A stretch of DNA of 64,000 bases from Candidatus Bathyarchaeia archaeon. Its GTDB lineage: Archaea; Thermoproteota; Bathyarchaeia; Bathyarchaeales; Bathycorpusculaceae. Position numbers and translations under genes: made by a program. A model generated the notes under the pieces. It saw only the letters and a program-made list of their open reading frames with translations, did not search any database and was not told the DNA's origin. Numbering within the stretch: position 1 is the stretch's first letter; every line of letters starts with the position of its first letter. The stretch lies in contig CP166960.1 of the NCBI GenBank assembly GCA_041447175.1, positions 767,507-831,506 on the forward strand, written 5' to 3'. This document shows positions 5,933 to 58,050 of the stretch, piece by piece.

Positions 5933-7537
5933 TTACATGTAAAACTTGTATTGCTGTTTTATAGCACTCCCTTGAGGAACCTCGCCGAGTACATCACCAA
6001 CCTTATAGGCACACTTTAAAGTCAATGGTAAGTAACTTGAGTAGTCAGCGGTGTTCCAGTCCAGCCTACTTAGAGCAATCATTTCTTTGGCAATTTCGTC
6101 TTGAGTAGCATCGCCGAAATGCTGACTTATCTCGAGCGGCTTTGGAACACGAGGACCAAGATATGCTCTCTGGTACGGTACGTAGCCTTTAGTATATACA
6201 AGAAATGAACGTCTTCCAAGGGTTATCGTAGTCCCCCTTAAAACTGCTTTTTCTCCATTTCGATAGAAAAACACCTCTCGACCATCACTTACAGAAATGA
6301 AGTCAAATCTAGGAATTTGCTCGCATGCTTTCAAGAAGCCTCTTCTTTCTTCATCCAAATACATTGATGATTTGTGAATAACCACTCGATTTGGTAGTTG
6401 CTGCTCGTGGTGTTCCTTGTAAACCGCAATAGCATCTTTCAATACGTCGTAAGCGTTTTCCTCCGAAAGATGGGGGGCACCAAGCTTTTCCATGTCCCAC
6501 TTAAAATCGTGTCCTCTTACAACCATTCCTTCGCCACTATCGCTAAATACTTGGGCAAGACTTGCACACATCGACTTATCTTGTTTTGTTCTATCTTTGT
6601 AAAAGGAAATTCCGACGTAACATGTTCCGCTTCTCAGATTTCCTACTTTCCAAGGAAAATGATTAGACTTATAATAAATGGCAGAGGCAAGGTTCCATAC
6701 GAGGGAGGAACGGTCTATACCCTTTCTTTTCTTTTTTACGTTACGTCCTGACATTTCCACCGTTGGCTCTAAAATGGTAAGTCTATGCAGTATTGATTGA
6801 GTCAGAATCTGTGTAGGTATGTCAAAAGCCAAGCATTTAGCCTTAAGTACACGTCTAAAATCTTGATGCACCGCCATATCCAGAAGATTTTGAGTACTTT
6901 CACTTAAAGGAGCAAGAATCTGATATGTTTGAATGTTTTTCCTTATCTTATCCGCTTGCTTCTTGTCTTTTCGTGTGAGAACTGACCTATTTTTTGTGCC
7001 AACCATTCCTGCTCCACAATTAGCTTCTATATTTTCAGGCTCATGACAGATAATGACCTCTGGGAGACTAACGCGCCTGCAAATAATGCCTACCTTTTCA
7101 GCGTATTTTTCAGCAGCACGTCTTATCCTTGTTTCAGGATTAGAGACTGAGAGAATTTTGTCAACCTCTTTTGAAGTTATTTCTTGGTCGTAATCGGATG
7201 AAAGAACCAATCTACAGCGGAACGCTTTCATGAAACCAGGAAAAGATTGGTTCGCAAAAGGTTTTTTCCCAGAACTCAAAATAACATTATTATTGACGTA
7301 CTCCAAGAAAGAGCTTGTCTCTTGTATCCCTTCACCAGTGCTAACAATTCCAACTCTAATTGTATACATGATATTGGTCTTGGCGTCTGAAGGTCCATTA
7401 ATCGTTAACCCACGCTTTTGGTCTATGTCTTGCGTTCCGTTAGCAAAATAAAGCGGTGCCTCTTCAATGTACTTCGCCGCATATCTTACTTCAGATTGTC
7501 GGCATGCAACCGTACTTTTCACAATGGTTTGTGTCAT
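5933..7537 (-). CDS. Short prokaryotic Argonaute (MID-PIWI), catalytically inactive, SPARTA-type
   Basis: 534 residues, the size of short pAgos, which have only MID and PIWI domains. The MID region carries FRRVLKAKC (227-235) and IPTQ (240-243), which match the 5'-phosphate guide-binding helix pattern. The PIWI part starts around WNLASAIYYK (281 onward), followed by YVGISF (307-312), where active Argonautes have the first catalytic Asp and this protein has Ser311. At VVIHKSS (385-391) the usual Asp of the HR/KD motif is absent. The C-terminus LDWNTADYSSYLPLTLK is a typical PIWI end. The protein should therefore bind a guide and target without cutting. Its ATG overlaps the stop of the TIR-APAZ gene by 4 nt, the operon pattern of SPARTA systems. 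Confidence 0.88.
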   Translation of the reverse strand: MTQTIVKSTVACRQSEVRYAAKYIEEAPLYFANGTQDIDQKRGLTINGPSDAKTNIMYTIRVGIVSTGEGIQETSSFLEYVNNNVILSSGKKPFANQSFPGFMKAFRCRLVLSSDYDQEITSKEVDKILSVSNPETRIRRAAEKYAEKVGIICRRVSLPEVIICHEPENIEANCGAGMVGTKNRSVLTRKDKKQADKIRKNIQTYQILAPLSESTQNLLDMAVHQDFRRVLKAKCLAFDIPTQILTQSILHRLTILEPTVEMSGRNVKKKRKGIDRSSLVWNLASAIYYKSNHFPWKVGNLRSGTCYVGISFYKDRTKQDKSMCASLAQVFSDSGEGMVVRGHDFKWDMEKLGAPHLSEENAYDVLKDAIAVYKEHHEQQLPNRVVIHKSSMYLDEERRGFLKACEQIPRFDFISVSDGREVFFYRNGEKAVLRGTTITLGRRSFLVYTKGYVPYQRAYLGPRVPKPLEISQHFGDATQDEIAKEMIALSRLDWNTADYSSYLPLTLKCAYKVGDVLGEVPQGSAIKQQYKFYM

Positions 7538-8937
7538 AACTCGTTCACCGTGAACACTTTATCCAGTGCTGCGCTCTTTTCTATGGCTTGTTCAAAGTAA
7601 TCAGGCTTGGGTTGTTCATACCAAAGCCTTCGCTTATAATCGCCTTCTATTCCACGGTTAATTGTAGCAAAAGCAGGCATCGTTGCAATAGTAGCTTCCA
7701 AATCCTCACCCAAAAATAGTTTCATTTCCTCAGATTGTTCCGACAAAATTGCTGTCCAAAAACGAACATCATCTAGTACAGAGTGGTTTCGCTGCATGTT
7801 CATCCATCGCGCGGATAACGATGACATTCGTAATGGAGAAACGGGTTCGATAATACCATCTTTAGTAAAATGCCAACCGGGCAATACTTTGAGAAACAAC
7901 CAATCATCAACTTGCGTAAAAGTGGCTTTGCATGACCTATGAACATAATGTGGCTTCACTGACTTTGCTTTTTTTACAAGGAAGCGAGTGTACTCTTTTG
8001 TTCCAATTCTCCAAGTTCCATTTCTGCTCTCATCGCCTCTATTGAGCAAAGGGAAGAACGTTTTTTTCTTCTTGCTTCTGAAATCATATGTCATATGCAG
8101 TTTTTCTTTCATGTGCCTTGTCATTGCCCTATTGAGGAGGTCAATAATCCAACAAGTTTCTTCCCCAGTTAGCAAGCTTTTGGTAGACACTGTTTGACAG
8201 GTCGGTTCTAGACACAAGTCTCCGAATCGATACTGCGAATCTTTTAAAGAGGCAAAGCTGTAAATTTTATGTTTCTCCTCGTCAAAGGCAAAGGGCGGGG
8301 GGTTCGCGCCCTCACCTAGCAATGGAAAAATATCCCTCCGCCTTTTCACGGTTGTCAATGCAACGTTGATTTTCTCAGGAATTTTTAAAATGGGAAAAAT
8401 GTTAGATGCTATTTCTTCCTCTTGTACATCAGCGGTTAATGACCCATAATCAATTTGCCCTGTATAAGCTGATGTAGTACGGTCTTTACCCATGGTCTCT
8501 CGTAACGTTTTACCCTGAAGCCTTCCAATCAGTTTTTTACTTTCTTTTTCAAAATTCGAATCCGTCTCAAAATTTAGCCATTTTAAAATGCGCATGGATG
8601 GTGGAGGCTCACAGTTTCTTCGCATGACTGGAATCATTCTGGCTTTCAAGCCTGCGGGGTCATCGTGTACAGGGATAACACGTTCCAACGTTGTCCAATC
8701 AGATTTTAACCAATCAGGCGACATAATGGGAATAATAAAATGTGACGAGGGTTCTGCTTTTTCTATTCTGAGTAAAATATTCTCCCCCGGCTCAATATCC
8801 CACTCGGCAAAAAAGACTTTGATTGGTTGTCCGTTAATGTTTTCCTTTTCAATTCTCTCAACAAGTTTTTCTGCAAAATCCTTGTCAGCCTTATTGTATG
8901 AGATAAATGCATCATAATCATACTGGCTTTGAGACAG
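7534..8937 (-). CDS. TIR-APAZ effector of a SPARTA-type immune system
   Basis: 467 residues if read from a CTG at 8937. The TIR domain spans about residues 6-150: DAFISYNKAD (strand A, 9-18), VFFAEWDIEPGENI (BB-loop region, 41-54) and SPDWLKSDWTTLER (73-86), where Glu85 is the likely NADase catalytic residue. The rest is an APAZ region, with LPGWHFTKDG (about 352-361) and RNHSVLDDVRFW (about 383-394) typical of Argonaute-associated proteins. Known SPARTA complexes hydrolyse NAD(P) when the Argonaute partner binds guide and target. There is no ATG, GTG or TTG between the upstream TGA (8940) and the TIR core. The first ATG, at 8724, would delete strand A and the BB loop. A Shine-Dalgarno-like AAGAGGGGC precedes the CTG. 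A sequencing frameshift is the main alternative. Confidence 0.87.
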   Translation of the reverse strand: MSQSQYDYDAFISYNKADKDFAEKLVERIEKENINGQPIKVFFAEWDIEPGENILLRIEKAEPSSHFIIPIMSPDWLKSDWTTLERVIPVHDDPAGLKARMIPVMRRNCEPPPSMRILKWLNFETDSNFEKESKKLIGRLQGKTLRETMGKDRTTSAYTGQIDYGSLTADVQEEEIASNIFPILKIPEKINVALTTVKRRRDIFPLLGEGANPPPFAFDEEKHKIYSFASLKDSQYRFGDLCLEPTCQTVSTKSLLTGEETCWIIDLLNRAMTRHMKEKLHMTYDFRSKKKKTFFPLLNRGDESRNGTWRIGTKEYTRFLVKKAKSVKPHYVHRSCKATFTQVDDWLFLKVLPGWHFTKDGIIEPVSPLRMSSLSARWMNMQRNHSVLDDVRFWTAILSEQSEEMKLFLGEDLEATIATMPAFATINRGIEGDYKRRLWYEQPKPDYFEQAIEKSAALDKVFTVNEL

Positions 8938-22790: not shown

Positions 22791-23486
22791 TTGAATAAGA
22801 CCGATAAGATAATCAGTCAAGCACGCCGAGAGGGACGCAATGCCCTACTTGAGCCTGAAGCAAAAACCATCTGCACCGAATATGACATTTCAGTAACCGA
22901 GTTTGATTTGGCAAAAAATGAAGACGAAGCCGTCACCGCAGCTGAAACAATTGGGTTCCCCGTTGTTTTGAAGATTGTCTCCGAGGATATCATCCACAAG
23001 TCTGATGCGGGCGGCGTCAAAGTTAACCTGAAAACCAAAGAAGAAGTCAAAGAAGCTTACAACCAGATTTTGGAAAACGCTAAACAATACAAACCTGACG
23101 CCAAAATCACTGGCGTTTTAGTGCAGGAGATGGCGCCTCAATCAACCGAAGTTATCATAGGCTCCATTAAAGACCCACAGTTTGGTCCAACAATCATGTT
23201 TGGGCTGGGAGGAATCTTTGTGGAACTCCTCAAAGACGTCACCTTCAGGATTGCGCCCATCACTGAGCGGGATGCCCGAGAAATGATTTCTGGCGTAAAA
23301 GCCTACCCCCTGCTAAACGGCTACCGAAATACTCCCCGCGCAGACATTGAAGCCATAGTGCAGTTGCTGCTTGCCGTGTCGGAACTGATTACAGAACATC
23401 CTGAAATCAAAGAACTGGACCTCAACCCCATCATGACATACGAGAAAGGCGCAAAAACGGTTGACGCCCGCATAATCCTAGAATAA
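22791..23486 (+). CDS. acdB: ADP-forming acetyl-CoA synthetase, beta subunit
   Basis: 231 residues, an ATP-grasp subunit of the usual length. EYDISVTEFDLA, GFPVVLKIVSEDIIHKSDAGGV (with His69, equivalent to the phosphorylated His of characterised beta subunits) and IMFGLGGIFVELLKDVTFRIAP define the family. With an alpha subunit, which is not in this window, it makes ATP from acyl-CoA, ADP and phosphate. This is a mark of archaeal peptide or sugar fermentation. The TTG start has GGAG upstream. Confidence 0.93.
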   Translation: MNKTDKIISQARREGRNALLEPEAKTICTEYDISVTEFDLAKNEDEAVTAAETIGFPVVLKIVSEDIIHKSDAGGVKVNLKTKEEVKEAYNQILENAKQYKPDAKITGVLVQEMAPQSTEVIIGSIKDPQFGPTIMFGLGGIFVELLKDVTFRIAPITERDAREMISGVKAYPLLNGYRNTPRADIEAIVQLLLAVSELITEHPEIKELDLNPIMTYEKGAKTVDARIILE

Positions 23487-23529: not shown

Positions 23530-24885
23530 TTATTTGTGCCGCATCATCGCGGCGCCTTTCTTTAATGTGCTTATCAAGCCTTCTCGTTTAACGACCCGCA
23601 TCAACCGCGCAGCCGACTTGTTGAAGCTGCCCTGAAATTCCCGCTGCACCTTCAACAACATCTCGTAGTCAAATTCAGGGGTTTTGACGCGCGCCAAATA
23701 GTTATCCATCTGGTCATACCACCCCTTCTCCATGACTTCGTCGTAAAGTCGGCTTCCCGGGCAGGCAACGTAAATGTTGAATTGGCACCAGTCAGGGTTC
23801 AGCTGCTTGGCAAACCTGAAGGTGGCATCCATGTCGCTGAAGGTCTCGCCTGGGATACCCAACATAAATGAAGCCACGGTGTGTATGCCCTCTTTGCGGC
23901 AGAGCTCAAAGGCAGCTTTGACTTCTTGAAGGGTGACGCCTTTGTTGAGTTTTTCCAGAATAGGCGGCGAACCTGATTCAACCCCAAAAAAGATGGTCTG
24001 GCAGCCAGCCGCCTTCATCTCACGCAGAAGCTCTTGAGACACCAAGTTGGCGCGGGTCTCACAGACCCATTTTATGTCGAGGCGGTTCTTTTTGATGAGG
24101 TGGCACAATTCGGTGATGCGTTTTTTGTTTATCGTGAAGTTGTCGCCTACAAAATAGATGCCTTTAGTGCCGTACGTTGCCATAATGTGGTTGATTTCGT
24201 CGATGGTTCGTTGGGGGGTAAAGATGCGGCAGGTATTTCCCCAGAGCTCACGGGTTTCGCAGTAGGCGCAGCTGTAAGGGCAACCGCGAATTATGCTCAC
24301 CGTGTCCACGGGTTCCACGTTCAAGTAGGGCAAGCGGCGGTCATACATCTTCATAGGCAACAGATGCCTTGCAGCAAAAGGAAGCTGGTCTAAATCACTG
24401 ATGAACTGGGGCGGGTTTTTGATTTTTCCGTAGGCGACGCCGGGGATTTTGGCGATTTCGGCTTCGTTGGCGTTTTTAATTATGGCTGCGGCGAGTTGGG
24501 TCATTGCTTGTTCCCCCTCTCCAATGACCACATAGTCAACCTGCGGGTGCTGCAGCATGGTTTTGGGCATGTATGATGGATGCGGTCCACCGACAACCAC
24601 TTTGCAGGCGGGCGCGGCTTCTTTGGCGGCTTTGGCGGTTTCAATGCATCGCTCAAAAGTTAGGGAACTGCAGGTTATGCCCACAATTTCGGGTGCGCGT
24701 TTTCGGATTTCCCCTTTGAGTTCTTCAGCGGATTTTTCAAGCAGGTAATTGTCATAGATTTCTACTTCAAACCCCGCTTTTTGGAGCGCGGCAGCAACGT
24801 AAGCCAGCCCCAATGGGGGAAGTTTGCCTGCCATGCCCCACGGCGATTTTTCAGGCGGAGCGGTGGTCATCAGTAGGATTTGCAT
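23530..24885 (-). CDS. B12-binding-domain radical SAM protein (paralogue 1)
   Basis: 451 residues. The N-terminal cobalamin-binding-like Rossmann domain (about 1-150) lacks the DxHxxG lower-ligand motif. The radical SAM barrel carries Cys202, Cys206 and Cys209 (CPYSCAYC) for the 4Fe-4S cluster. GVESGSPPILEKLNKG and FMLGIPGET are the BchE/HpnP-like later motifs. Family members methylate or rearrange unactivated carbons, often in lipids or cofactors. It is one of four paralogues in 6 kb. The substrate is unknown. Confidence 0.85.
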   Translation of the reverse strand: MQILLMTTAPPEKSPWGMAGKLPPLGLAYVAAALQKAGFEVEIYDNYLLEKSAEELKGEIRKRAPEIVGITCSSLTFERCIETAKAAKEAAPACKVVVGGPHPSYMPKTMLQHPQVDYVVIGEGEQAMTQLAAAIIKNANEAEIAKIPGVAYGKIKNPPQFISDLDQLPFAARHLLPMKMYDRRLPYLNVEPVDTVSIIRGCPYSCAYCETRELWGNTCRIFTPQRTIDEINHIMATYGTKGIYFVGDNFTINKKRITELCHLIKKNRLDIKWVCETRANLVSQELLREMKAAGCQTIFFGVESGSPPILEKLNKGVTLQEVKAAFELCRKEGIHTVASFMLGIPGETFSDMDATFRFAKQLNPDWCQFNIYVACPGSRLYDEVMEKGWYDQMDNYLARVKTPEFDYEMLLKVQREFQGSFNKSAARLMRVVKREGLISTLKKGAAMMRHK

Positions 24886-24928
24886 GAATCAATCGTAACC
24901 TGCCTTCTGGTCAACTGGATCCACTTTG

Positions 24929-26350
24929 TTAGCCCATTATGCGGTTGAATTTAGCTCTGGCAGCTCTGCGGGCGTGCGCCAAAATCAGGCGTGTTGCGCC
25001 TAGCCCCCACATTTTGCCTTTCTTGAACATTTTAAGAGCGCTGACAAAGTATGCTGGGCTAAGGTAGAACTGCTGGAACGCCTGCTCCCGAATCTGCACC
25101 AGCTCCTGCATGCTTAAAGTGGGGATTTCGAAGACGGGAGTTGCGGTGTCGTATCGGTCAAAGTCAGTTATACGAAGCCAGCCTTTTGCTAAAACTTCGT
25201 CATACATGGGTGTACCCGGGTAGGGCGTAGCAATGTAGAAGCCCACATCGTTGGGGTTGAGTTCTTTAACGAAGCGGATGGTTTCCCACGCCGTTTCTTT
25301 AGTTTCGCCTGGGAAGCCCAAAATTACGCCTGCAACAACCATGAGGCCAGCGTCTTTTGCCCATTGGAAGGCGCGTCGAATTTGATTAAGCGAAAAGCCC
25401 TTCGCCATGGCGTCTACAACTTGCTGGCTGCCAGACTCCACACCGAACCAGACGCCGATGCAGCCTGCCTTGCGCATCTTAACGAGGAGCTCTTTGGTTA
25501 CCATGTCTACGCGGGTTTCGCAGTCCCACTTGAACTTCAAGCCCCTGCGCTCCATTTCGTCGCACATTTCGGCTGTTCGCGCTTGGTCCACTGTGAATGC
25601 GTCGTCGTAGAAGGTGAATTGGTTGGCGTTAAATTTTTTGTGCAGATACTCCATTTCGTCAACCACGTTTTTGGGGCTGCGCATACGGTATCCTCGACCA
25701 AACATGCGTACTGCCGTGCAGAAGTTACACCAGAAAACGCATCCGCGGCTGGTCATAATTGGGTAAGGGATGGTGCCGTACTTGTTTAGGTCGCCTGCAT
25801 TTTCTTGTGTGTGCCACAGGTGGTGCGCAGGAAACGGAAGGCTGTCAAGGTCTTGCAGGAACGGTCTGTCAGGGTTTTTGACTATGCCGTCACCTTTTCG
25901 GCAGGTCGTGCCCACCAAGTCAGTGTATGGTTTACCTTTTTCCACGCATTCAGCGAGTTCCAGCATGGTAGCTTCGCCTTCGCGGCGGACAACCACATCC
26001 AAGTATGGCGCTTCCTGCAGAGCTTTGTCATCCCAGAAGGTGACGTGGCTGCCTCCGATGGCGGTTATGCAGTTGGGCCAGACTTCCTTGGCGATTTTTG
26101 CCACTCTAAGCGCTGACTTGTAGGTGAGGGTGGTGGAGGTCATCCCCACGATGTCAGGTTTGTTTTTGCCAAGCTCCGCCTTCATCTGTTCCAGCGTAAG
26201 TTTTTGGGCTTGGCAGTCAATTACGTTAACGTGATATTGGTCGCGTTCTAAAACCGCCGCTAAATACCCCAAACCTAACGGAATAAAAGCAGGGTGCTGA
26301 TGGGAACCAACGGGGTATGGCGGATTGATAAGAGTTATGTTTGTCCTCAT
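24929..26350 (-). CDS. B12-binding-domain radical SAM protein (paralogue 2)
   Basis: 473 residues. INPPYPVGSHQHPAFIPLGLGYLAA opens the cobalamin-like domain. The cluster cysteines are 204, 208 and 211 (CVFWCNFC). GVESGSQQVVDAMAKG and GVILGFPGET follow in the barrel, and the C-terminus is basic and helical. It is closest in plan to paralogue 3 (same NPPYP opening and GYLAA). The gap of 43 nt to paralogue 1 and the same strand suggest an operon. Archaeal relatives include enzymes that modify membrane lipids. Confidence 0.86.
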   Translation of the reverse strand: MRTNITLINPPYPVGSHQHPAFIPLGLGYLAAVLERDQYHVNVIDCQAQKLTLEQMKAELGKNKPDIVGMTSTTLTYKSALRVAKIAKEVWPNCITAIGGSHVTFWDDKALQEAPYLDVVVRREGEATMLELAECVEKGKPYTDLVGTTCRKGDGIVKNPDRPFLQDLDSLPFPAHHLWHTQENAGDLNKYGTIPYPIMTSRGCVFWCNFCTAVRMFGRGYRMRSPKNVVDEMEYLHKKFNANQFTFYDDAFTVDQARTAEMCDEMERRGLKFKWDCETRVDMVTKELLVKMRKAGCIGVWFGVESGSQQVVDAMAKGFSLNQIRRAFQWAKDAGLMVVAGVILGFPGETKETAWETIRFVKELNPNDVGFYIATPYPGTPMYDEVLAKGWLRITDFDRYDTATPVFEIPTLSMQELVQIREQAFQQFYLSPAYFVSALKMFKKGKMWGLGATRLILAHARRAARAKFNRIMG

Positions 26351-26477
26351 TCTTAGTCCCTGAATCTATATTGGTCCTTTGCACTTCCCATAACGTACGG
26401 CAGTTCATTTACCTTTTGTAACCATGCAACCTTTATGTTTAAGCCCCACCGTAGGGAAACGAGGAAAACACCGACTG

Positions 26478-27923
26478 CTACTTTTGGTCTTTGCCGCCCG
26501 ATTTACCCATAAGCGTCGAAATCAGCTGGGGAACCTTGCTGCGCCATAGCAGGTGATTAAGGGCGGTTCGAGCCATGATTTTGCTGTAAAAGTCTCCCCG
26601 CATCGACTCCCGCACGTAATAAGTAGGCGAGAAGAAGCTGTTGAAGAATTCGTGACGTGTCTGGTCGATGTTTTCCTGCCGCAACATGGGACTCTTAAAC
26701 ACGGGCGTCACCTCATCGTAGTGGTTCCAGTCAGGATCCATCGCCCAACCCAGCTGTTCCAGCCGCTCAGCCATATCAGTACCCGGATAAGGTATAGCTT
26801 GACACATGTAAACGTAGTCAGGCTGAGTCCGCTCAATGAACTCCACGGTCTGCTTAAGCATTTCAGGGGTTTCGCCGGGGTAACCCACAACAACCGAAAT
26901 TGCTGCGCCGATGCCAATCTCTTTGGTCAGCTTGATGGCGCGGGCGTTCTGCTCAACGGTGGTGCCCTTTTTCATGAGGTTAAGCATTTTTTGGCTGCCT
27001 GATTCGACGCCGTAGTGGATGAGTTTGCAGTTTGCCTTCTTCATTTTCTGTAGCATCTCTACCGTGACTTGGTCCACGCGGGTGCGGCAGTCCCAGGGTA
27101 GGTCGACTTTGCGGTTTATGATTTCTTGGCAGATGTCATAGGCGCGTTGTTTGTCAAACGTGAATGTGTCATCGTAAAACGCAAATGCGTCGGCGTCGTA
27201 GCTGTCCCGTAGCCACTCCAACTCGTCAACCACTTTCTTGGGGCTTCGTGCACGAAAACCTCGCCCACACATCTTGGACGCCAAACAAAACGCGCAGTTA
27301 AAAGGGCAGCCTCTGCTGGTTATGATGGGCAAATACATTTTGCCCGCGAACTTGTAGCCCCGTAAATCAAAATGATTATACGCTGGATGCGGAAGTTCAT
27401 CAAGGTCTTCAATAAATTGGCGGTCTTTGGTGCGGACCACTTCGCCGTCGTTCCTGTAGGTGATGCCGTCGATTCTGCTCAGTCCCTTAAGGTCGGAGCC
27501 CGAAGCCAACCCTGCCAGTTCCAGAATCGTCTGCTCCCCCTCACCCCGAGCCACCACGTCGGGTGCGTTGGGTTCCTGCATGGTCTGCTCGTCCAACACG
27601 GTGACGTGTGGTCCTCCCATGACGGTGAGGCAGTTGGGGCGAACTTCCTTGGCGATTTTCACAATCTCTAACGCAGGTTTGTAGGTGAGCGTGGCAGAGG
27701 TTAACCCCACTAAGTCAGGCTGCGTTTTGGCAAATTCATCAGCGAGCTGCTTGGGCGAGGGATAATCCACTTGGCAGTCGATAACATTGACTTCGTATTG
27801 GTTTTTTTCCAAAAACGCCGCTAAATACCCAATGCCTAAGGGTATAAAAGGTGCTTGAACAGCCCCTGCTGGGTAAGGTGGGTTGACAAGGGTCACGCGT
27901 GCCTTCAAGTTGCTTTCGTCCAA
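26478..27923 (-). CDS. B12-binding-domain radical SAM protein (paralogue 3)
   Basis: 481 residues if read from the TTG at 27923. An in-frame TTG (27908) or GTG (27896) nearer the conserved TLVNPPYPAG is possible. The cluster cysteines are 206, 210 and 213 (CPFNCAFC). GVESGSQKMLNLMKKG and VVVGYPGET follow. It is similar to paralogue 2 along its length, pointing to a local duplication. It heads the minus-strand run of three radical SAM genes and diverges from paralogue 4. Confidence 0.85.
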   Translation of the reverse strand: MDESNLKARVTLVNPPYPAGAVQAPFIPLGIGYLAAFLEKNQYEVNVIDCQVDYPSPKQLADEFAKTQPDLVGLTSATLTYKPALEIVKIAKEVRPNCLTVMGGPHVTVLDEQTMQEPNAPDVVARGEGEQTILELAGLASGSDLKGLSRIDGITYRNDGEVVRTKDRQFIEDLDELPHPAYNHFDLRGYKFAGKMYLPIITSRGCPFNCAFCLASKMCGRGFRARSPKKVVDELEWLRDSYDADAFAFYDDTFTFDKQRAYDICQEIINRKVDLPWDCRTRVDQVTVEMLQKMKKANCKLIHYGVESGSQKMLNLMKKGTTVEQNARAIKLTKEIGIGAAISVVVGYPGETPEMLKQTVEFIERTQPDYVYMCQAIPYPGTDMAERLEQLGWAMDPDWNHYDEVTPVFKSPMLRQENIDQTRHEFFNSFFSPTYYVRESMRGDFYSKIMARTALNHLLWRSKVPQLISTLMGKSGGKDQK

Positions 27924-28166
27924 CGTTGGTTAAGAGACCAAACTGGCGACGCACGCTATTATGTGTTTTGCAAAAAACCCGCGGTGTCCACTGAAGGGGT
28001 GCAACTGCTGAGTTAACAACAAACGCGCGGCTTCCGAATTGTGCATCAAATTCGTGTTTTGGCGGTTTTGCACAAGCTATTAATCCCGCCGCATCCCATA
28101 TGCACCTGCCAACCAAAAAGGGGACATGCCAATTTTCCAGAGCATTCCCAAGAGCAGGTCAAAAAC

Positions 28167-29684
28167 ATGCGTGTTTGCCTCATTAACCCACCCCGTTTGC
28201 ACCCGAAAATGTGGGGAAAACCCAGCCCCTTCCAACCCATCGACCTTGCATATGTTGCTGCTGTGCTCAGAGAAAAGCATGATGTTCACATTATTGACGC
28301 ACCGGCTGAGGGCTGGTCAAACCTGCAGGAGATTGGGGCTCGTAAATACCGCCTTGGCTTAACTAATGGGCAGATGGCGTTTAGGGTTAAGCAGTTGGCG
28401 CCGGAGTTTGTGGTGATTACGATTCCGTTTTCAGGGTGGTGGGAAACTGCCTTCGAAGCCGCCAACATCGTCAAGAGAGTAAATCCGCAAATCAAAACTG
28501 CCTTGATGGGTTTGCATCCGACCTCGCGTCCTGAAGAATGCCTCCATCAGCCAAACGTGGATTTCGTGGTTCTGGGTGAACCTGAACTCACTACGCTGGA
28601 GCTAACTGACCAGCTGGAGCAGGGGGCAACTGAGGCGGGCCTCAAATTGGTCCAAGGCATAGGCTTTCGGAGCGGCAACCAAGTCATCCTCAACGAAAGA
28701 CGCCCCTTTAACACTGACCTTGACAGCTTGCCGTTTCCCGCGCGGGACTTGCTGCCGTTGGAGAGTTTTTTTGCTGCTATAAAAAAGAATCCTATCCGAG
28801 GCGAAATCCGCAAACCCTACGCCCGCGTCATCACTAGCCGCGGCTGCCCCCACCGCTGCATCTTCTGCTCCAACCACATCATGAACGGCAGAACTTGGCG
28901 CCCCAGAAGCCCAGAAAACGTTGTTGCTGAACTGGAAGACGCGGTACGCAGGTTTCACGTGACGCAGGTGGATTTTGACGACGAGAACCTGACTTTTGAC
29001 ATGGCGCGGTTTGAACGTATCTGCGATTTAATTGTGGAGAAGAAGCTCAAGTTTGAGTGGTTCACGCCAAATGGGGTGCGGGCTGACGGCTTAAACGAAA
29101 AACTGTTAAGGAAAATGCGGGCGTCCGGATGCCACCGAATTCTCATCGCGCCTGAATCGGGCTCCCAACGCGTAGTTACCGACATAATAAAAAAGAATCT
29201 AGACCTCTCAAAGGTTGAGAACGCTGTTATCGCCGCACGCAAAGTCGGCATAAAAGTCGGCTGCTTCTTCATCATCGGCATGATAGGGGAAACCAAAAAC
29301 GAAATCATAAAAACCATAAACTTCGCCCTCAAACTCCGCCAGCTAGGTGCAGACCGCTTCTACTTCAGCTTTGCCACCCCGCTTTACGGTACGGAGCTTT
29401 ATGAGCAAGCAAAACGTGGCGGATACCTCAAAGAAGGCTTCAACGACGAGGCATTGTCCGAAGCACAGCCGCTTATTGAAACGCCCGAGTTTTCAGCAGA
29501 AGACCTGCGGGAGCTCTGTGCGAAGGCAATGATGATTAACCCCACCTTGAACAGTGACCGTCTTCTTCGAGCCATACGCAACCCCCGCAAAGCTCTGGAA
29601 ACGCTGATTGGGCGCACGCGGGCGCGTCAGTACCAGCGGGAAATCAGCAAAACCAGCGGAGCTAACACAGAAAAAGGAAGTTAA
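28167..29684 (+). CDS. B12-binding-domain radical SAM protein (paralogue 4)
   Basis: 505 residues from the ATG at 28167; codons upstream belong to the intergenic region. MRVCLINPPRLHPKMWGKP opens the cobalamin-like domain. The cluster cysteines are 227, 231 and 234 (CPHRCIFC). IAPESGSQRVVTDIIKK and FFIIGMIGET complete the barrel. It is more distant from the other three and includes an insertion around residues 48-70. The 3' end overlaps the convergent Dph6 gene by 4 nt. Confidence 0.85.
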   Translation: MRVCLINPPRLHPKMWGKPSPFQPIDLAYVAAVLREKHDVHIIDAPAEGWSNLQEIGARKYRLGLTNGQMAFRVKQLAPEFVVITIPFSGWWETAFEAANIVKRVNPQIKTALMGLHPTSRPEECLHQPNVDFVVLGEPELTTLELTDQLEQGATEAGLKLVQGIGFRSGNQVILNERRPFNTDLDSLPFPARDLLPLESFFAAIKKNPIRGEIRKPYARVITSRGCPHRCIFCSNHIMNGRTWRPRSPENVVAELEDAVRRFHVTQVDFDDENLTFDMARFERICDLIVEKKLKFEWFTPNGVRADGLNEKLLRKMRASGCHRILIAPESGSQRVVTDIIKKNLDLSKVENAVIAARKVGIKVGCFFIIGMIGETKNEIIKTINFALKLRQLGADRFYFSFATPLYGTELYEQAKRGGYLKEGFNDEALSEAQPLIETPEFSAEDLRELCAKAMMINPTLNSDRLLRAIRNPRKALETLIGRTRARQYQREISKTSGANTEKGS

Positions 29685-30388
29685 GCTTTAGGCTGCAGGG
29701 ACACATCTTTGATGTCCATGTACAGCCAGTTGCGTTTCCAGTTTTTGCTCTTTTCTTTATGGTTTTTCGTTTTAAATTTGTCCACTTGTACGTTCTGCTT
29801 AAAGAAGGGTGCCTCAACGACTTCGCTGTGGTATCCCTGTCCATCTTCACTGCAGACATCAATTTCTTTTTCATCCGCCAACGCCTTAAGCTCCTTGATT
29901 GACTGGGGGTCAATGACGCGTCCAAGCCAGTTTTCAGGGAAAAAGTTCAGGTTGATGCAGTTAAGCATTGGGCGTAAGCCGGCGTCGATTTCTTCTTTGA
30001 GGACGTCGTAGGTGTCGCCGGAGGGGTTTTCGTTGGGCATCATGAAGTTTAGCCCTGCTTCTTTACACATTGTTTCGTAGTAACTGGAGTGGACAATTGC
30101 GCATCCTGCTCCTACGATGTCGCCGGTGACTACGCCTTGTACGCCTTCTTGGTCATGTAGCTGTTTGAGTGCTTTGAGGATGTCTTCGTAGGGTTTTTTG
30201 ATTTTGACTTTCTTGAGCGGTACATTCATGGTTTGGGCTTGAAGCTCCATGATTTTGAAGCTGTGAAAAACATAGGGTTTGGCGTACTCGAAGGTTAATA
30301 AGTATGCGACTTGGTGCCCCTGTTGAACTGCTTTTTGGTAGGCTAAGGCGCATTCTTTACCTCCGCTCCAGTGGATGACGACTTTCAT
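29681..30388 (-). CDS. dph6: Dph6-type diphthine--ammonia ligase (PP-loop ATPase)
   Basis: 235 residues. The PP-loop SGGKECALA at residues 8-16, GDIVGAGC, and LNFMMPNENPSGDTYDVLKEEIDAGLRPMLNCIN fit the archaeal Dph6 family (MJ0570-like). The enzyme amidates diphthine on elongation factor 2. Cys and acidic residues after the PP loop replace the common KDS of related N-type ATP pyrophosphatases. The ATG at 30388 is well defined. Confidence 0.82.
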   Translation of the reverse strand: MKVVIHWSGGKECALAYQKAVQQGHQVAYLLTFEYAKPYVFHSFKIMELQAQTMNVPLKKVKIKKPYEDILKALKQLHDQEGVQGVVTGDIVGAGCAIVHSSYYETMCKEAGLNFMMPNENPSGDTYDVLKEEIDAGLRPMLNCINLNFFPENWLGRVIDPQSIKELKALADEKEIDVCSEDGQGYHSEVVEAPFFKQNVQVDKFKTKNHKEKSKNWKRNWLYMDIKDVSLQPKA

Positions 30389-47915: not shown

Positions 47916-50684
47916 CTACTTTTTCACTTTTTTCTTAAACGCCGCTTCTTTCTTTGTCTCTGAGTCTTCCGCTATTGGATTACTGTCATTACAGTATCCT
48001 TCGAAACACTTGGTTGCTTTCTTGAAATCAAATCCCAACCGTTGCAGTTGTTTAATCATTTTGTCATCTATGGCTTCGTTGTCAATCAAACACCTAAACA
48101 GTTTACATAACCTCTGTTCATTATCCCGTTGACCGTCTGGCTTTGAGTCACCGCCAAAATATGCTGCAGCAGTCAAGGTTTGTTCACGCCAAAACTGAGA
48201 CCCGTACAATGTCTCGCCCATTGTTCTAACGCGCAACTTGTAAAGCCCAGACAACGTAGTTCTCAAGCGACCTTGAAATTGACCTGGTGCATACTCCTCC
48301 AAATTAAGTTCCAGCTGACTTCCATCGGGTAATGTTACTTCTGCCCAAACCTTCGCACGCTTCTCAACTGGCACGCCATATTCTTTCAAGCTCGCAAAAA
48401 CCCAAACATCCGTGTCCAGCGCAAAGTTTTTTTGTTGAACCTTGACTGCGAAGAACAGGTTTGAATAGCAATGAGCAATTAAATCGTAGGGCAAGTGCCC
48501 TTTACGGACTGCTTTTTTCAGAGAAGAATCTACGTCGGTAGAACGTAACTTGTTTTGGTCAAGCTTGATTATTGCCTTCCATGTGCCGTTGTGGCTGCCT
48601 TTGGGGTCACTGTGTATTGCAGGCAGTACGATTCGGTAGTAACTGAAATTGTTTTTGCTTACGAATTTAACAGGTGAGGACCCGCCGACCATTGAAGGGG
48701 TAACGAGTTTTCCGTTGGGTGTTTCAAGCTGGAAATCAATAATTGGAGCAACAGGGGACAGCAGGAAAACATCTATACCGTTATCGGATTCAATTACGTT
48801 GAAGGGTATACGATGTTCTACGCCAGGGTCAAGATTTCCATGGGGATCCAAGATTACGTTAGCGCTTGTGATGCCCGCGAGAATTTGAAGGAAGTACTTT
48901 TTAAGCAGCGCCTCCTGATCCGACGTCAAAGTTCCTGTTATAAGCAAATATCCATTGTGTCCCTGCGTCAAAGCATTCAAAGCAGCAGTGCTGATGTTTT
49001 CGGGATTTCCAAGACCAATCGCAAAAGTGTTTGCTGTTATACTGGAACTTATTTGTGATAGGTAAGGTGACGTGTTTTCTTTGCCGTCCGTGAGAACTAG
49101 TTGTGCGAGAACATCAAAAGGCGTTGAGGCGCCCGCTTGGCTTGCGTCAAGAGCCTGTTTTGAGGTAACAACTCCCGCTCCAATGGAAGTTGTTCCGTTT
49201 GGGTCCAACTCGGAGCTTGCTATGTGCCCTATTGCTGTTGAGCGCCCCGCGCCGGTCATTTCTGGTCCCGCTTGTGTGACCGGCATAAGAAGGTCAGCGG
49301 CTTGATTGAAGCGGACAATTCCTATGGAGTCGTCTTCCAACATGGCATCTACGAAGAGGTTTGCGGCTTCTCTTAATTTTTCTACTTTAATTACTCCATC
49401 GCCTGCGTCTTCAATCATGCTGCCCGAACGGTCTAAGACCAGTACAACCGCTGCTTTTGGTCGAGAAACTGTATTCGCGTTTATGTTGATGACCCACGTT
49501 TGTCCCGTTTCTGCACATTGAACTGTAACGGTGCCTGAACTTGTTGCGCCTGCGGTGGTGGAGGTATAAGAAAGCCAGATTTGAGCCTTGTTGACGGGTG
49601 TGGTTTTCGGTGGAGGGACAACAATGGATGTCCCAAAAGGTGTGCCAAAGCCGCTTGTTGGACCTGAAAGGATATTTAGTGTTTTTGGGGTATAATTGAC
49701 AATCTCAAAAACTATTGCTCGAAAGGTTGTAATGCCTGTTCCGCCGATGCCTTCAGGAATATCTGTGAAGGAGATGCTTGGGGTTAAAAGTGTTATGTAT
49801 TCGGCTGGCTGAAAAGGCGCTAAGGTTTGTCGTATGGCCCGTTCACAGACAGCGCAGAAGGGTACGCCCAGATTCCGCATCTTACAGTTATATTGGGGGC
49901 GGAAAATTCCGCAGTGATTATAATATGCGCCTTCAAAAGTTCCAACGGTATCTGGGGCTACGGGGTTTCCTTGCGTATCGCATTTTGTGCAGTCTGCATT
50001 TGTAGTTGTAGGGGTTGGTGTCGTTGTTGCAATCAAATCATCCCATTTGTTTGTTGCATTACTGTCCTTCGTGACATTTGCTGCGGTTGGTTCCCCTCCA
50101 GAATAGTGATCATGCCCCAGTTCACCTGAATTACATCCCTGATAGTATGGATATTCATCTGCAAGTTTAAACGCGGTATGCCCCATTTCATGAATTGCGC
50201 ATTCAATTCCTGAACTTGCTGTGAATTTAGCAACTGCTCCTCCAGAACCGCCACCTAATGACGTATTGACTATAACAAACACCATATGGAATTGGGGAAC
50301 TTGTGCACTTGCTACTGCAAATGCAGAGGCGTTATTTATTGTCACTAATCTACGAACTGTTCCATCCCCACAGGTTGTTGCGTCGAAATATGTGTGTACA
50401 CTTGCTCCTGAACCTACGCTGCCGTCGCTGCAACTTGCGGGGTCGTCAATTCCGCTATCTGTTGAGACTACGTCAACGCGGTAGACGTTTATTCCGCACC
50501 AAAGTTCATTGAATGGCGCTGTTGCGTAGATTCCGTCAATGGCGTCTCGGACGTCATTATGGTATTTGGTCATCTCTGATGCGCTATAGCCATCACCCAA
50601 AAACACTAAATTGTAGCGTAGCGACGCTGGTCCATGGTCCACAACCTTTGTTGTGCCAATTATGTATCCGTCAGATGTGGTCAT
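47916..50684 (-). CDS. M64-type zinc peptidase fused to a von Willebrand factor A domain
   Basis: 922 residues. The N-terminal part has NLVFLGDGYSASEM and the zinc motif HEMGH (165-169) with DEY (176-178), the pattern of the M64 (IgA peptidase) family. A Cys-rich segment (about 231-281) probably closes the peptidase domain. A beta-sandwich follows (about 300-405), then a VWA domain with the MIDAS sequence DRSGSM at 418-423 and an intact Asp-Thr rear. The last 300 residues are beta-rich. No signal peptide or membrane helix is seen, so it acts inside the cell or leaves by a non-Sec route. The ATG overlaps the upstream gene by 4 nt. Confidence 0.78.
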   Translation of the reverse strand: MTTSDGYIIGTTKVVDHGPASLRYNLVFLGDGYSASEMTKYHNDVRDAIDGIYATAPFNELWCGINVYRVDVVSTDSGIDDPASCSDGSVGSGASVHTYFDATTCGDGTVRRLVTINNASAFAVASAQVPQFHMVFVIVNTSLGGGSGGAVAKFTASSGIECAIHEMGHTAFKLADEYPYYQGCNSGELGHDHYSGGEPTAANVTKDSNATNKWDDLIATTTPTPTTTNADCTKCDTQGNPVAPDTVGTFEGAYYNHCGIFRPQYNCKMRNLGVPFCAVCERAIRQTLAPFQPAEYITLLTPSISFTDIPEGIGGTGITTFRAIVFEIVNYTPKTLNILSGPTSGFGTPFGTSIVVPPPKTTPVNKAQIWLSYTSTTAGATSSGTVTVQCAETGQTWVININANTVSRPKAAVVLVLDRSGSMIEDAGDGVIKVEKLREAANLFVDAMLEDDSIGIVRFNQAADLLMPVTQAGPEMTGAGRSTAIGHIASSELDPNGTTSIGAGVVTSKQALDASQAGASTPFDVLAQLVLTDGKENTSPYLSQISSSITANTFAIGLGNPENISTAALNALTQGHNGYLLITGTLTSDQEALLKKYFLQILAGITSANVILDPHGNLDPGVEHRIPFNVIESDNGIDVFLLSPVAPIIDFQLETPNGKLVTPSMVGGSSPVKFVSKNNFSYYRIVLPAIHSDPKGSHNGTWKAIIKLDQNKLRSTDVDSSLKKAVRKGHLPYDLIAHCYSNLFFAVKVQQKNFALDTDVWVFASLKEYGVPVEKRAKVWAEVTLPDGSQLELNLEEYAPGQFQGRLRTTLSGLYKLRVRTMGETLYGSQFWREQTLTAAAYFGGDSKPDGQRDNEQRLCKLFRCLIDNEAIDDKMIKQLQRLGFDFKKATKCFEGYCNDSNPIAEDSETKKEAAFKKKVKK

Positions 50685-54134: not shown

Positions 54135-54151
54135 CGCATTTGAGTATAAGT

Positions 54152-55609
54152 GTGAACCATAGGAGAACAACAAAATGGGGTATCGTCTTTGGCGACCAAA
54201 CGCCAACCACAACAATACAAACAACCAGTAACTTAGTCAACCCTCTAAGCTTCAAAAAAATCCCCTTCAAAAAATCCCCCCTCGACATTTTCAACCAACT
54301 CTACAAACACTACCCACACGCGTACCTGCTCGAATCCATCGAAGGACCCAAAAAACTCGCACAATTCTCATTCCTCGGATTTGACCCTCAACTCACCATC
54401 CAAATAAAAAACGGAACCGCCACCACCCGCAACCCCCAAACCGGACACGAAACCAAACAAGAAACCACCAACCCACTGCAAGTCATCAAACAGGCACTCG
54501 CAGGCAGAACAACCGCCAACAAGGACTTCCGCTTCGCAGGGGGCGCCGTGGGCTACATCAGCTACGACGCCATCCGCTACTGGGAAAAACTACCTACCTC
54601 CACCGTTGACGACTTGAATTTCCCCGACGTGGAGATGGGCGTCTTTGACGACGGTATTGTCTTTGACCACAAACAGAAACGTGCCTACTACTATTACTAT
54701 GGCAAAAACCGGTTGCAAGAGGTTGAAGAACTGCTTAGCCAGACCACAGAACCGCCAGAACTCAGTGTTAGCCCGCCCAACGTAAACGTCTCCAAAGACT
54801 GCTACGAGAAAGCCGTCGAAACCGCCAAACAATATGTAACCCAAGGTGACATTTTCCAAGTCGTTCTTAGCAAACGTTTCGACATGCGCTTTAAAGGTGA
54901 CCTCACCGCTTTCTACCGGGCATTACGCGCCATTAACCCTTCACCTTACATGTACTTCTACAAAGCCGAAGACCGGCAAATTGTGGGTTCCAGCCCCGAA
55001 ATGCTGGCGCGTGTCGAAAACCGCACCGTCGAAACCTTCCCCATCGCTGGCACCCGCCCCATCACAGCCGACGTAGCTGAAAACAGGCGACTATCACGCG
55101 AACTTTTGGCTGACCCCAAAGAATGCGCCGAACACGTGATGCTGGTGGATTTAGCCCGCAACGACGTAGGCAGGGTCTCCAAATTTGGCAGCGTTCGTGT
55201 GCCCCAATTCATGCAGGTGCAACGCTACAGTCACGTGCAGCACATTGTTTCGCGAGTGATCGGCGACCTTACAGATGAATATGACTGCTATGACGCCCTG
55301 CGCGCAGTTTTCCCCGCAGGCACTGTTTCGGGGGCACCTAAAGTTCGCGCCATGGAAATTATTGAGGAGCTTGAGCCCACGCGTCGAGGACCTTACGCGG
55401 GTGCTGTGGGTTACTTCAGTTACAACGGCAACATGGATTTTGCCATAACCATCCGAACCCTCTTTGCCGAAAAGGACCGCGCGTTTGTGCAGGCAGGCGC
55501 AGGCATCGTGGCGGACTCTGTTCCTGAGCGTGAGTGGTTTGAAACCGAACATAAAGCTGGCGCGCCCATGAAGGCACTGCAGGCATGCGAAGGAGGCAGC
55601 ACCCAATGA
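54152..55609 (+). CDS. trpE: Anthranilate synthase component I
   Basis: About 485 residues. The PFKKSPLDIFNQLYKHYPHAYLLES segment is the start of the conserved N-terminal domain. SPEMLARVENRTVETFPIAGTRP, DLARNDVGRVSKFGSV and GTVSGAPKVRAMEIIEELEPTRRGPYAGAVGYFSYNG are chorismate-binding motifs. The first 30 residues are not conserved and are A/C-rich in codons. The in-frame GTG at 54152, or the TTG at 54140, are the only starts before the domain; the promoter favours the GTG. With TrpG it makes anthranilate from chorismate and glutamine. Confidence 0.9.
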   Translation: MNHRRTTKWGIVFGDQTPTTTIQTTSNLVNPLSFKKIPFKKSPLDIFNQLYKHYPHAYLLESIEGPKKLAQFSFLGFDPQLTIQIKNGTATTRNPQTGHETKQETTNPLQVIKQALAGRTTANKDFRFAGGAVGYISYDAIRYWEKLPTSTVDDLNFPDVEMGVFDDGIVFDHKQKRAYYYYYGKNRLQEVEELLSQTTEPPELSVSPPNVNVSKDCYEKAVETAKQYVTQGDIFQVVLSKRFDMRFKGDLTAFYRALRAINPSPYMYFYKAEDRQIVGSSPEMLARVENRTVETFPIAGTRPITADVAENRRLSRELLADPKECAEHVMLVDLARNDVGRVSKFGSVRVPQFMQVQRYSHVQHIVSRVIGDLTDEYDCYDALRAVFPAGTVSGAPKVRAMEIIEELEPTRRGPYAGAVGYFSYNGNMDFAITIRTLFAEKDRAFVQAGAGIVADSVPEREWFETEHKAGAPMKALQACEGGSTQ

Positions 55610-56193
55610 AGGTCCTAGTTATTGACAACTATGATTCATTTGTCTACAACCTCGTACAGTACGTGGGAGAACTCGGAACCGAAGTTGTTGTTTACCGCAA
55701 CGACCAAGTTACCCTCACTCAAGTGAAGGCACTCAAACCCGACCGCATAGTCATCTCCCCAGGACCAGGCAACCCCGAGGATGAGCATTACTTTGGCGTC
55801 TGCAAAGCAGTACTGCAACAAGTCAGCCCAACCGTACCCACCTTGGGCGTGTGCTTGGGGCATCAAGGCATCGTCGCAACTTTCGGCGGCAAAGTCGTCT
55901 CCGCCAAACGCCTCATGCACGGAAAAACCAGCGTCATAAAACACGACGGCAAAGGACTCTTCCGCGGCGTCGAGAACCCGTTCACAGCGACGCGGTACCA
56001 CTCGCTGGCAGGGGAGCAGGACACCATCCCCGACTGCCTCGAAGTAACAGCGGTTGCAGTGGATGACGGTGAAGTCATGGGCGTTCGACACAAACAGTAC
56101 CCCATCGAGGGAGTTCAGTTCCATCCTGAATCCATCCTTTGCGAAGACGGCAAACTCATAATCAAAAACTTTCTTGAGGGCAACGCGCCATGA
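55606..56193 (+). CDS. trpG: Anthranilate synthase component II (glutamine amidotransferase)
   Basis: 195 residues, class I amidotransferase. SPGPGNPED, the nucleophile Cys in GVCLGHQGI, and the His-Pro-Glu triad in VQFHPESIL are present. The ATG overlaps the trpE stop by 4 nt (ATGA), and AAGGAGG lies upstream. It supplies ammonia to TrpE. Confidence 0.94.
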   Translation: MKVLVIDNYDSFVYNLVQYVGELGTEVVVYRNDQVTLTQVKALKPDRIVISPGPGNPEDEHYFGVCKAVLQQVSPTVPTLGVCLGHQGIVATFGGKVVSAKRLMHGKTSVIKHDGKGLFRGVENPFTATRYHSLAGEQDTIPDCLEVTAVAVDDGEVMGVRHKQYPIEGVQFHPESILCEDGKLIIKNFLEGNAP

Positions 56194-57251
56194 TTGTGCA
56201 AACAATACGAGCCCTCATCGAAGGCAATAACCTGAACCCGCAAGACGCGCGCTCAGCCATGGAGGAAATCATGACTGGACAAGCCACCAACGCCCAAATC
56301 GCCGCGTTTTTAACAGCGCTACGCATGAAAGGCGAAACCGTTGAGGAGTTGGTGGCGTTTGCGCAGGTTATGCGGGATAACTGCACCCGAATCTCACCCA
56401 AAGTGGGGGGTCGTCTTGTGGACACATGTGGCACAGGCGGAGACAAACTCAAAACCTTCAACGTAAGCACAGCAGCCGCGTTTGTGGCTGCAGGCGCAGG
56501 CGTTTTCGTAGCTAAACATGGGAACCGCGCGGTGACCAGTAAAAGCGGAAGCGCCGACGTGCTTGAACGCCTCGGCGTTAACTTGGCTTTGGAGCCTCAG
56601 GGTGTCAAGGCAGTCATTGAGCAGGTGGGAATTGGCTTTATGTTTGCGCCTGCGTTTCATCCCGCCATGAAGTATGCAGTGGCGCCCCGACGGGAACTGG
56701 GCATACGCACCGTCTTTAACGTGTTGGGACCGCTAACTAACCCTGCCTCGGCTGATGTGCAAGTGCTTGGTGTTTACTCCGCAGAACTTGCCGAGCCGCT
56801 GGCTCTCGCGCTCAAGGGATTGGGCTGCAGTGAAGCCATGGTAGTGCACGGCGTGGACGGCTTAGACGAGATATCCACAGTCGGCAAAACCACAATAGCC
56901 CAACTCAAAGACGGCACCGTAACCACCCGCCACGTGTCCCCCCAAGACTTAGGCTTACCGCAGGCTACGCTCTCGGATTTGCTGGGCGCAACACCACAAG
57001 AAAATGCAGAATATCTTTTCAAAATCTTGTATGGGCAACAGTTGAAGGGTGACCCGAAAACCGACATCGTGCTTGCCAACAGCGCCGCGGCGTTGGTTGT
57101 GGGCGGAAAAGCAGACGACCTGCTTGGAGGCGTCGAGGTAGCGCGTGAAGTAGTTGAAAGCGGAGCCGCCTACAATAAGCTCAAGGCGCTGGTCAAGGGG
57201 TCGGGCGGTGATTCCGCAAAACTTGAGGAGTTGGAGCAGAGGTATGCCTGA
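56190..57251 (+). CDS. trpD: Anthranilate phosphoribosyltransferase
   Basis: 353 residues. VDTCGTGGDKLKTFNVSTAAAF is the PRPP-binding motif, and KHGNRAVTSKSGSADVLE and GIGFMFAPAFHPAMKYA are anthranilate-site signatures. It overlaps trpG by 4 nt. It transfers phosphoribose from PRPP to anthranilate. Confidence 0.95.
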   Translation: MIVQTIRALIEGNNLNPQDARSAMEEIMTGQATNAQIAAFLTALRMKGETVEELVAFAQVMRDNCTRISPKVGGRLVDTCGTGGDKLKTFNVSTAAAFVAAGAGVFVAKHGNRAVTSKSGSADVLERLGVNLALEPQGVKAVIEQVGIGFMFAPAFHPAMKYAVAPRRELGIRTVFNVLGPLTNPASADVQVLGVYSAELAEPLALALKGLGCSEAMVVHGVDGLDEISTVGKTTIAQLKDGTVTTRHVSPQDLGLPQATLSDLLGATPQENAEYLFKILYGQQLKGDPKTDIVLANSAAALVVGGKADDLLGGVEVAREVVESGAAYNKLKALVKGSGGDSAKLEELEQRYA

Positions 57252-58017
57252 CTTTCTTGATGTTCTTGCCAAAGACGCGCAAGCAATCGTGGCAGAAGGC
57301 TACTACCAGAGCCTTCCCTGTGTGGAGCAGGTCCAGGTAAGCATGCGTGAGGCGATTCTAAACGCTAAAACGGCTGTTATTACCGAAGTTAAAGGCGCCT
57401 CGCCCTCTAAAGGCACCATCCGCCAAAACTTCCAATCCGCAGCGGTCGCCCAAGCCATGATGCGGGGCGGTGCAGTGGGCATCTCGGTTTTAACTGAACC
57501 CAAACACTTCAACGGCTCCCTGGAAAACCTCAGGCTGGTCCGCGGCGCAGTGGAGTTGCCTGTGCTCATGAAAGACATCGTCGTCAATCCTATACAGTTG
57601 GAGGCAGCCGCAAAACTTGGCGCTAACGTTGTCCTGCTCATCCAAGCGGTGTTTGACCGGGGTTACTGTGGCTTCGAACTGCCCGAAATGATTGCGAAGG
57701 CACATTCGAACAACCTCGAAGTGCTCCTGGAAACCCATAATCAGCACGAATTCTGCCGCGCCGTGCAATCCAACGCAGACCTTGTGGGTGTCAACAACCG
57801 AAACCTTGGAACCCTGCAAGTTGACCTCGCTGTTACCAAGAACGTGCTGGCGAACTGCCCCCACAACGGCAAAGTCGTCGTGAGTGAGAGCGGAGTCAAC
57901 ACGGCAGCTGACCTGCGTTTTCTGCGCGAATGCGGCGCACAGGCATTTCTTGTTGGCTCCTCTGTGATGCAGGCTTCTGATGTTGAAGCAAAAGTCAAGG
58001 AGCTCGTGACTGCCTAA
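57244..58017 (+). CDS. trpC: Indole-3-glycerol phosphate synthase
   Basis: 257 residues from the ATG at 57244, which lies in the last codons of trpD (8-nt overlap) after AGAGG. VITEVKGASPSKG (with the catalytic Lys), LMKDIVVNPIQLEAAAKLGANVVLL and VGVNNRNLGTLQVDL form the TIM-barrel active site, and ESGVN the phosphate loop. No trpF lies next to it or is fused to it. Confidence 0.94.
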   Translation: MPDFLDVLAKDAQAIVAEGYYQSLPCVEQVQVSMREAILNAKTAVITEVKGASPSKGTIRQNFQSAAVAQAMMRGGAVGISVLTEPKHFNGSLENLRLVRGAVELPVLMKDIVVNPIQLEAAAKLGANVVLLIQAVFDRGYCGFELPEMIAKAHSNNLEVLLETHNQHEFCRAVQSNADLVGVNNRNLGTLQVDLAVTKNVLANCPHNGKVVVSESGVNTAADLRFLRECGAQAFLVGSSVMQASDVEAKVKELVTA

Positions 58018-58050
58018 CATTCAAGATAATTAAAGATGGAGGAAAACTGA

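Follow-up and report, generated by a model that had tools for sequence, protein, structure and literature searches.

Bathyarchaeia rank with the most abundant archaea of anoxic sediments, and unusual tetraethers have been reported from them. Several described systems are close to the genes considered here. The GDGT ring synthases GrsA and GrsB are archaeal radical SAM enzymes that act on tetraethers, and the tetraether synthase Tes and the GMGT synthase Gms also belong to lipid synthesis. BchE is the anaerobic Mg-protoporphyrin monomethyl ester cyclase, HpnJ takes part in hopanoid biosynthesis, and CobC, CbiB, CobY and CobS assemble the nucleotide loop of cobamides. Production of BDGTs by Bathyarchaeia is described in a report cited in PMC13003381 and PMC12694404. 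Bathy-6 MAGs contain 7–20 B12-type radical SAM genes each together with many PQQ proteins, and a role in lignin metabolism was suggested on the basis of these gene numbers and PQQ proteins (PMC11697101). Here we describe four bathyarchaeial genes of the B12-type radical SAM class that are members of a co-located and co-inherited gene suite.

The stretch of DNA that was analysed (the window; 64,000 nucleotides of a Candidatus Bathyarchaeia archaeon genome) contains four genes, A to D, that are predicted to encode cobalamin-dependent radical SAM enzymes. Genes A (23530–24885; 451 aa), B (24929–26350; 473 aa) and C (26478–27923; about 481 aa from an uncertain TTG start) are on the minus strand, separated by 43 bp (A–B) and 127 bp (B–C), while D (28167–29684; 505 aa) is divergent on the plus strand. 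The start of D was assigned to the ATG at 28167 rather than to 28041 because orthologues share a conserved start at that position. The region between C and D (27924–28166) is the putative site of both promoters. All four ORFs were intact, and both the B12-binding domain (PF02310) and the Radical_SAM domain (PF04055) exceeded the Pfam cut-offs in every one of them, with scores of 99 and 106 bits, respectively, for A. Each protein also carries a CxxxCxxC motif that is invariant across the family alignment, encoded in the window at 24259–24282 (A), 25718–25741 (B), 27285–27308 (C) and 28845–28868 (D). These results confirmed the original prediction of four such genes, three co-oriented and one divergent, and A–D probably bind the cofactors and carry out the chemistry of cobalamin-dependent radical SAM enzymes. 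The single-contig genome from which the window was taken has 43 Radical_SAM matches per 2.73 Mb. At this density the Poisson probability of finding at least four Radical_SAM genes within 6.2 kb is about 3e-6.

The original prediction also stated that duplication was plain between the second and third paralogues. B and C were indeed the closest pair, with 45% identity compared to 33% for both A–B and D–B. In a tree of 101 homologues, A, B, C and D each fell in a separate old clade containing orthologues of other bathyarchaeial genera and families, and the B and C clades were sisters. Because of this grouping across genera and families, the B/C duplication is old, and a recent tandem duplication was rejected as the origin of A–D. 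We conclude that A–D represent four old paralogue families within Bathyarchaeia.

A–D were then compared with curated family models. The top models were BchE, HpnJ, ApyD and a P-methyltransferase family, all of which scored far below their cut-offs. A–D gave 131–250 bits with the BchE model TIGR02026 (cut-off 481), 169–249 bits with the HpnJ model TIGR03471 (cut-off 578) and 54–143 bits with the HpnR model TIGR04367 (cut-off 650); assignment of A–D to BchE, HpnJ or HpnR was rejected on these scores. By score, the nearest known relatives include an enzyme of tetrapyrrole synthesis (BchE) and one of hopanoid synthesis (HpnJ), both of which share with A–D the order of a B12-binding domain followed by a radical SAM domain. 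However, photosynthetic or hopanoid genes were not seen in the A–D loci. GDGT ring synthases and other lipid-modifying enzymes had been proposed as relatives of the four proteins. Of the lipid-type models, HpnJ and HpnR were matched far below their cut-offs, and neither the Tes model NF045702 nor a GrsA/GrsB-type model was among the 25 best models for A–D. GrsA and GrsB were compared with A–D by description; GrsA is described as having C-terminal helices (PMC11186832), and the structural model of B likewise ends in helices. A Pfam search found no SPASM or HMPTM domain in A–D. It is the partners of A–D described below that resemble Tes and Gms, whereas A–D themselves have B12 domains and do not belong to these two families.

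AlphaFold models of B (pLDDT 91) and D (pLDDT 90) were also examined. The model of B has a Cbl-rSAM fold, with TsrM, AprD4, MgmA and TokK as the best PDB matches, and AprD4 and MgmA were the best matches for D. The fold common to the two models and to AprD4, MgmA, TsrM, TokK and OxsB gave model-normalised TM-scores of 0.63–0.75, but sequence identity to B and D was just 14–23% and the substrates of these enzymes differ. A–D are new members of a known superfamily.

The gene adjoining D (29681–30388, minus strand; 235 aa) is predicted to encode a Dph6-like ATP-dependent amidase or ligase, a paralogue within the diphthine-ammonia ligase family. The protein scored 98 bits with TIGR03679, below the cut-off of 197. 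In six other genomes, B12-type radical SAM genes are flanked by members of its subfamily (58–83% identity). Two further Dph6-like genes found in the window's genome differ from it (31–38%). The gene is missing from many loci. The remaining neighbours in the window (a CoA-ligase subunit, an M20 hydrolase, HtpX and TFS) are generic genes and were rejected as an explanation of the cluster. Among the loci that were read, the left-hand neighbours recur beside A–D in a close relative only; this relative (locus L055) keeps the gene order of the window, so the local neighbours say little. The short ORF at 22791–23486 (231 aa) matches one end of acyl-CoA ligases only (4-hydroxybutyrate-CoA ligase model), which marks it as a separate subunit. 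Elsewhere in the window, two adjoining ORFs of 534 and 396 aa (5933–8724) had no Pfam match, a 922-aa protein (47916–50684) contains peptidase M64 and von Willebrand A domains, and a gene run at 54140–60068 resembles a tryptophan operon, the first gene matching anthranilate synthase I and one gene having a PALP domain in Pfam.

Relatives at a greater distance have the four families in large loci with recurring partners. The clearest case is contig 6 of genome G032, which has all of A, B, C and D within 27.8 kb, alongside partner genes of the suite. The gene order begins with Tes2-UbiA2-SDR, CobS2-CobY, SPASM473-DUF362 (SPASM473 being a 473-aa SPASM protein), GT4-GT2-DPM (DPM/AglJ-like) and CobC2, and continues with A, B, D, CbiB2, an amidohydrolase, C, a PQQ propeller, a SPASM protein, a further C-type enzyme (Cx) and HutW. 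The order Tes2-UbiA2-SDR/CobS2-CobY/SPASM-DUF362/GT4-GT2-DPM/CobC2 is kept, in whole or in part, in about 20 genomes. In the window's genome the Tes2 core is found at about 226–303 kb, roughly 490 kb from A–D, and includes the Tes2 gene with the adjoining UbiA, SDR, CobS2 and CobY genes (contig C1, 249370–253517; locus L103). As the Tes2 core is this distant, the quartet is tied to the suite here by family and not by place.

PQQ-propeller genes lie next to A–D homologues, which bears on the lignin proposal. If that proposal applied here, A–D would serve the metabolism of lignin or other aromatic compounds together with secreted PQQ-propeller proteins. We consider this very improbable, since the constant partners of A–D are lipid- and cobamide-type genes. 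In addition, PQQ-propeller genes are very numerous, with 46 in one complete MAG (PMC11697101). Genes this common are weak evidence when found adjacent to A–D.

Three further blocks of genes were observed. In the window's genome, genes for a SPASM protein, an RnfD-ferredoxin protein, a membrane protein, a HutW-like protein and a second SPASM protein form one block (locus L105, 11332–18594), within which the proteins m11 and c116 matched no Pfam family. An MtrH-like methyltransferase gene and a gene for a corrinoid-type protein adjoin those of two large membrane proteins (L101, 261–6426), near a further B-type B12 radical SAM gene at 195 kb of contig C1 of the same genome. At L064 (4219–5313) a gene for CbiZ, an adenosylcobinamide amidohydrolase, lies between genes for two paralogous 300-aa proteins with no Pfam match, and this trio adjoins B-type radical SAM genes.

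The partner proteins were also scored with curated models. Tes2 gave 452.2 bits with the tetraether lipid synthase model NF045702, marginally above the cut-off of 450, and shares about 37% identity with the ordinary Tes, from which it is distinct. UbiA2 is nearest to DGGGP-synthase-type models, and the window's genome has four UbiA-family genes. The suite might make an unusual membrane lipid only, with A–D methylating, cyclising or bridging tetraether chains or the glycerol backbone (GrsA-like or BDGT-type) and the cobamide-like genes supplying an amino-alcohol phosphate head group. This explanation is unlikely on balance but has to be taken seriously. The second Tes, UbiA and polyprenyl-type glycosyltransferases share the suite, and butanetriol tetraethers have been reported from Bathyarchaeia (cited in PMC13003381). 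Moreover, the SPASM partner of about 475 aa, in which an N-terminal domain precedes CxxxCxxC at residue 127, is similar in layout to the GMGT synthase (PMC11186832). However, the CxC motif that Gms is reported to have for its auxiliary cluster, near residue 370 (positions from PMC11186832), was absent at that place from every SPASM protein of 470–509 aa, and identity as Gms was not assigned to this partner because the motif is missing. The CbiB2, CobY2, HutW-like and AhbD-like proteins are likewise not readily explained by a lipid.

The suite also contains a second set of all four nucleotide-loop genes. CobC2 and CbiB2 pass the cobamide models, while CobS2 passes PF02654 and gave 107.5 bits with TIGR00317 compared to a cut-off of 110. 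The window's genome has two copies each of CbiB and CobS. Canonical CbiB, CobS and CobY outscore the second-set copies on the cobamide models; the canonical genes and the second set are diverged within the same genomes, and it is the second set that is interlocked with Tes2 and UbiA2. Hydrophobic segments of membrane type occur in CobC2, either fused or encoded by an adjoining ORF. A second, unusual cobamide could be the product of such genes, in which case A–D and the second set would produce or alter a variant corrinoid or its lower ligand, as the B12-type radical SAM enzymes BzaD and BzaE do. The presence of second copies of CobC, CbiB, CobY and CobS fits this explanation, as does an array in genome G048 with CbiZ and a canonical CobS nearby. 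We nevertheless regard it as improbable: the BzaD model gave 82–130 bits with A–D, far beneath its cut-off of 450, CobS2 is the more diverged copy, and Tes2 and UbiA2 are left unexplained.

Other partners resemble enzymes of tetrapyrrole metabolism. The HutW-like protein scored 186 bits on ChuW/HutW, the SPASM proteins of the suite gave 200–308 bits with AhbD and less with NirJ, and a CobB/CfbB-like relative gave 384/367 bits. The RnfD-like protein bears a ferredoxin end. A modified tetrapyrrole without a lipid anchor could account for these genes, A–D then acting in a BchE-like manner on a porphyrinoid or corrinoid together with the HutW-like, AhbD/NirJ-like and CfbB/CobB-like enzymes found in the same loci. 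In keeping with this possibility, BchE ranked first or second among the curated models for A, B and C (215–250 bits). On the other hand, every radical SAM score is far below the family cut-off, the CfbB/CobB-like relative was seen in just two loci, and Tes2 and UbiA2, which are constant partners, are enzymes of the lipid type. A tetrapyrrole alone is accordingly a rather unlikely product. The pure lipid and the pure tetrapyrrole are close rivals of the explanation that we favour, and each of them explains a subset of the partners.

Co-occurrence of the suite genes was determined in 61 genomes, including that of the window. Tes2 and CobS2 were found in an identical set of 21 genomes. B-type enzymes (at least 55% identity) were present in 20 of these 21 suite genomes and in one other genome. 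Orthologues of D (at least 52% identity) were found in 13 of the 61 genomes, the window's own included; all 13 lie within the suite set, and D is absent from the other 8. The HutW-like (20 genomes), RnfD-like (19) and CbiB2 (18–19) proteins were likewise confined to the 21 suite genomes. Ordinary Tes was present in nearly all of the 61 genomes. Canonical CobS was found in 24 genomes, and the suite largely tracks cobamide synthesis; however, four genomes (G008, G029, G038 and G052) have canonical CobS without the suite. As ordinary Tes is nearly universal and canonical CobS occurs in four non-suite genomes, the suite set does not simply correspond to the tetraether or cobamide makers.

The overlap with cobamide-making genomes would also be expected if the suite genes were co-located through a shared need for cobalamin, with no common product. 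We judge this the least probable of the explanations considered. The four genomes named above argue against it, and Tes2, UbiA2 and the HutW-like protein are equally tightly linked to the suite. To our knowledge, no B12 requirement has been described for these three proteins.

An out-of-sample check covered 121 genomes across the class. All eight previously unseen CobS2 genomes had C/B-type matches at E <1e-150, and outside families f1 and f6 there was no C/B-type match below about 1e-112. C/B-type matches at E < about 1e-140 followed CobS2, with one marginal exception (G133; 5e-140 without CobS2). Fisher tests of co-occurrence in the 61 genomes gave p <1e-9, ignoring relatedness. These p-values are inflated by relatedness because the suite needs just about four changes on a Tes1 tree, and they were not taken as proof for this reason. 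In an independent-pairs test about 2.9 of 3 pairs were concordant, although so few pairs cannot reach significance.

Our tentative preference, which falls somewhat short of an even chance, is that A–D belong to a conserved, membrane-associated suite of about 20 genes whose product is a tetraether-type lipid with a tetrapyrrole-like or other nucleotide-loop-type polar group. The suite would make one product with an isoprenoid or tetraether part, and nucleotide-loop-type chemistry would join this part to a polar or tetrapyrrole-like part. The original prediction was of a dedicated pathway, possibly one for unusual membrane lipids or for a cofactor. Co-location and co-inheritance with the partners support this prediction in part, as regards a pathway.

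The order of steps and the product of the suite can be proposed as follows. In each of A–D a [4Fe-4S] cluster would cleave SAM, and the resulting 5'-deoxyadenosyl radical would abstract hydrogen from an unactivated carbon, all four enzymes working on a single family of substrates. The bound cobalamin could serve as a methyl donor or as a redox or radical partner, and the four enzymes may act at different positions or in successive steps. The partner genes point to a hydrophobic substrate. Isoprenoid chains would be built or coupled by UbiA2 and Tes2, while attachment and activation of an amino-alcohol phosphate, and its joining to an acceptor, would fall to CobC2 (with its membrane segment), CbiB2, CobY and CobS2. 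Further ring, side-chain and amidation steps may be carried out by the AhbD-like, Gms-like and HutW-like radical SAM proteins and the Dph6-like ligase.

A more specific and speculative form of this proposal, which we consider unlikely, credits Bathyarchaeia with a tetrapyrrole cofactor, similar to a corrinoid or porphyrinoid, that either spans the membrane or carries an isoprenoid anchor. The lipid would then come from UbiA2 and Tes2, the second CobC-CbiB-CobY-CobS set would link the ring to it via an amino-alcohol phosphate, and A–D together with the HutW-like and AhbD-like enzymes would tailor the ring or the chains. Together with the RnfD-ferredoxin protein and the secreted propeller proteins, such a cofactor might support redox or methyl chemistry at the membrane.

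A literature search that covered only a minority of subscription journals found no description of A–D paired with both a second Tes and a second set of nucleotide-loop genes. The suite replaces the notion of many B12 radical SAM genes, perhaps for lignin, with specific partners. The combination of Tes2, a second nucleotide-loop set and four B12-type radical SAM enzymes provides a concrete and testable group of genes for a lipid or a cofactor. A lipid product would offer a new biomarker whose genes are already known, and a lipid-linked tetrapyrrole would represent a new class of cofactor.
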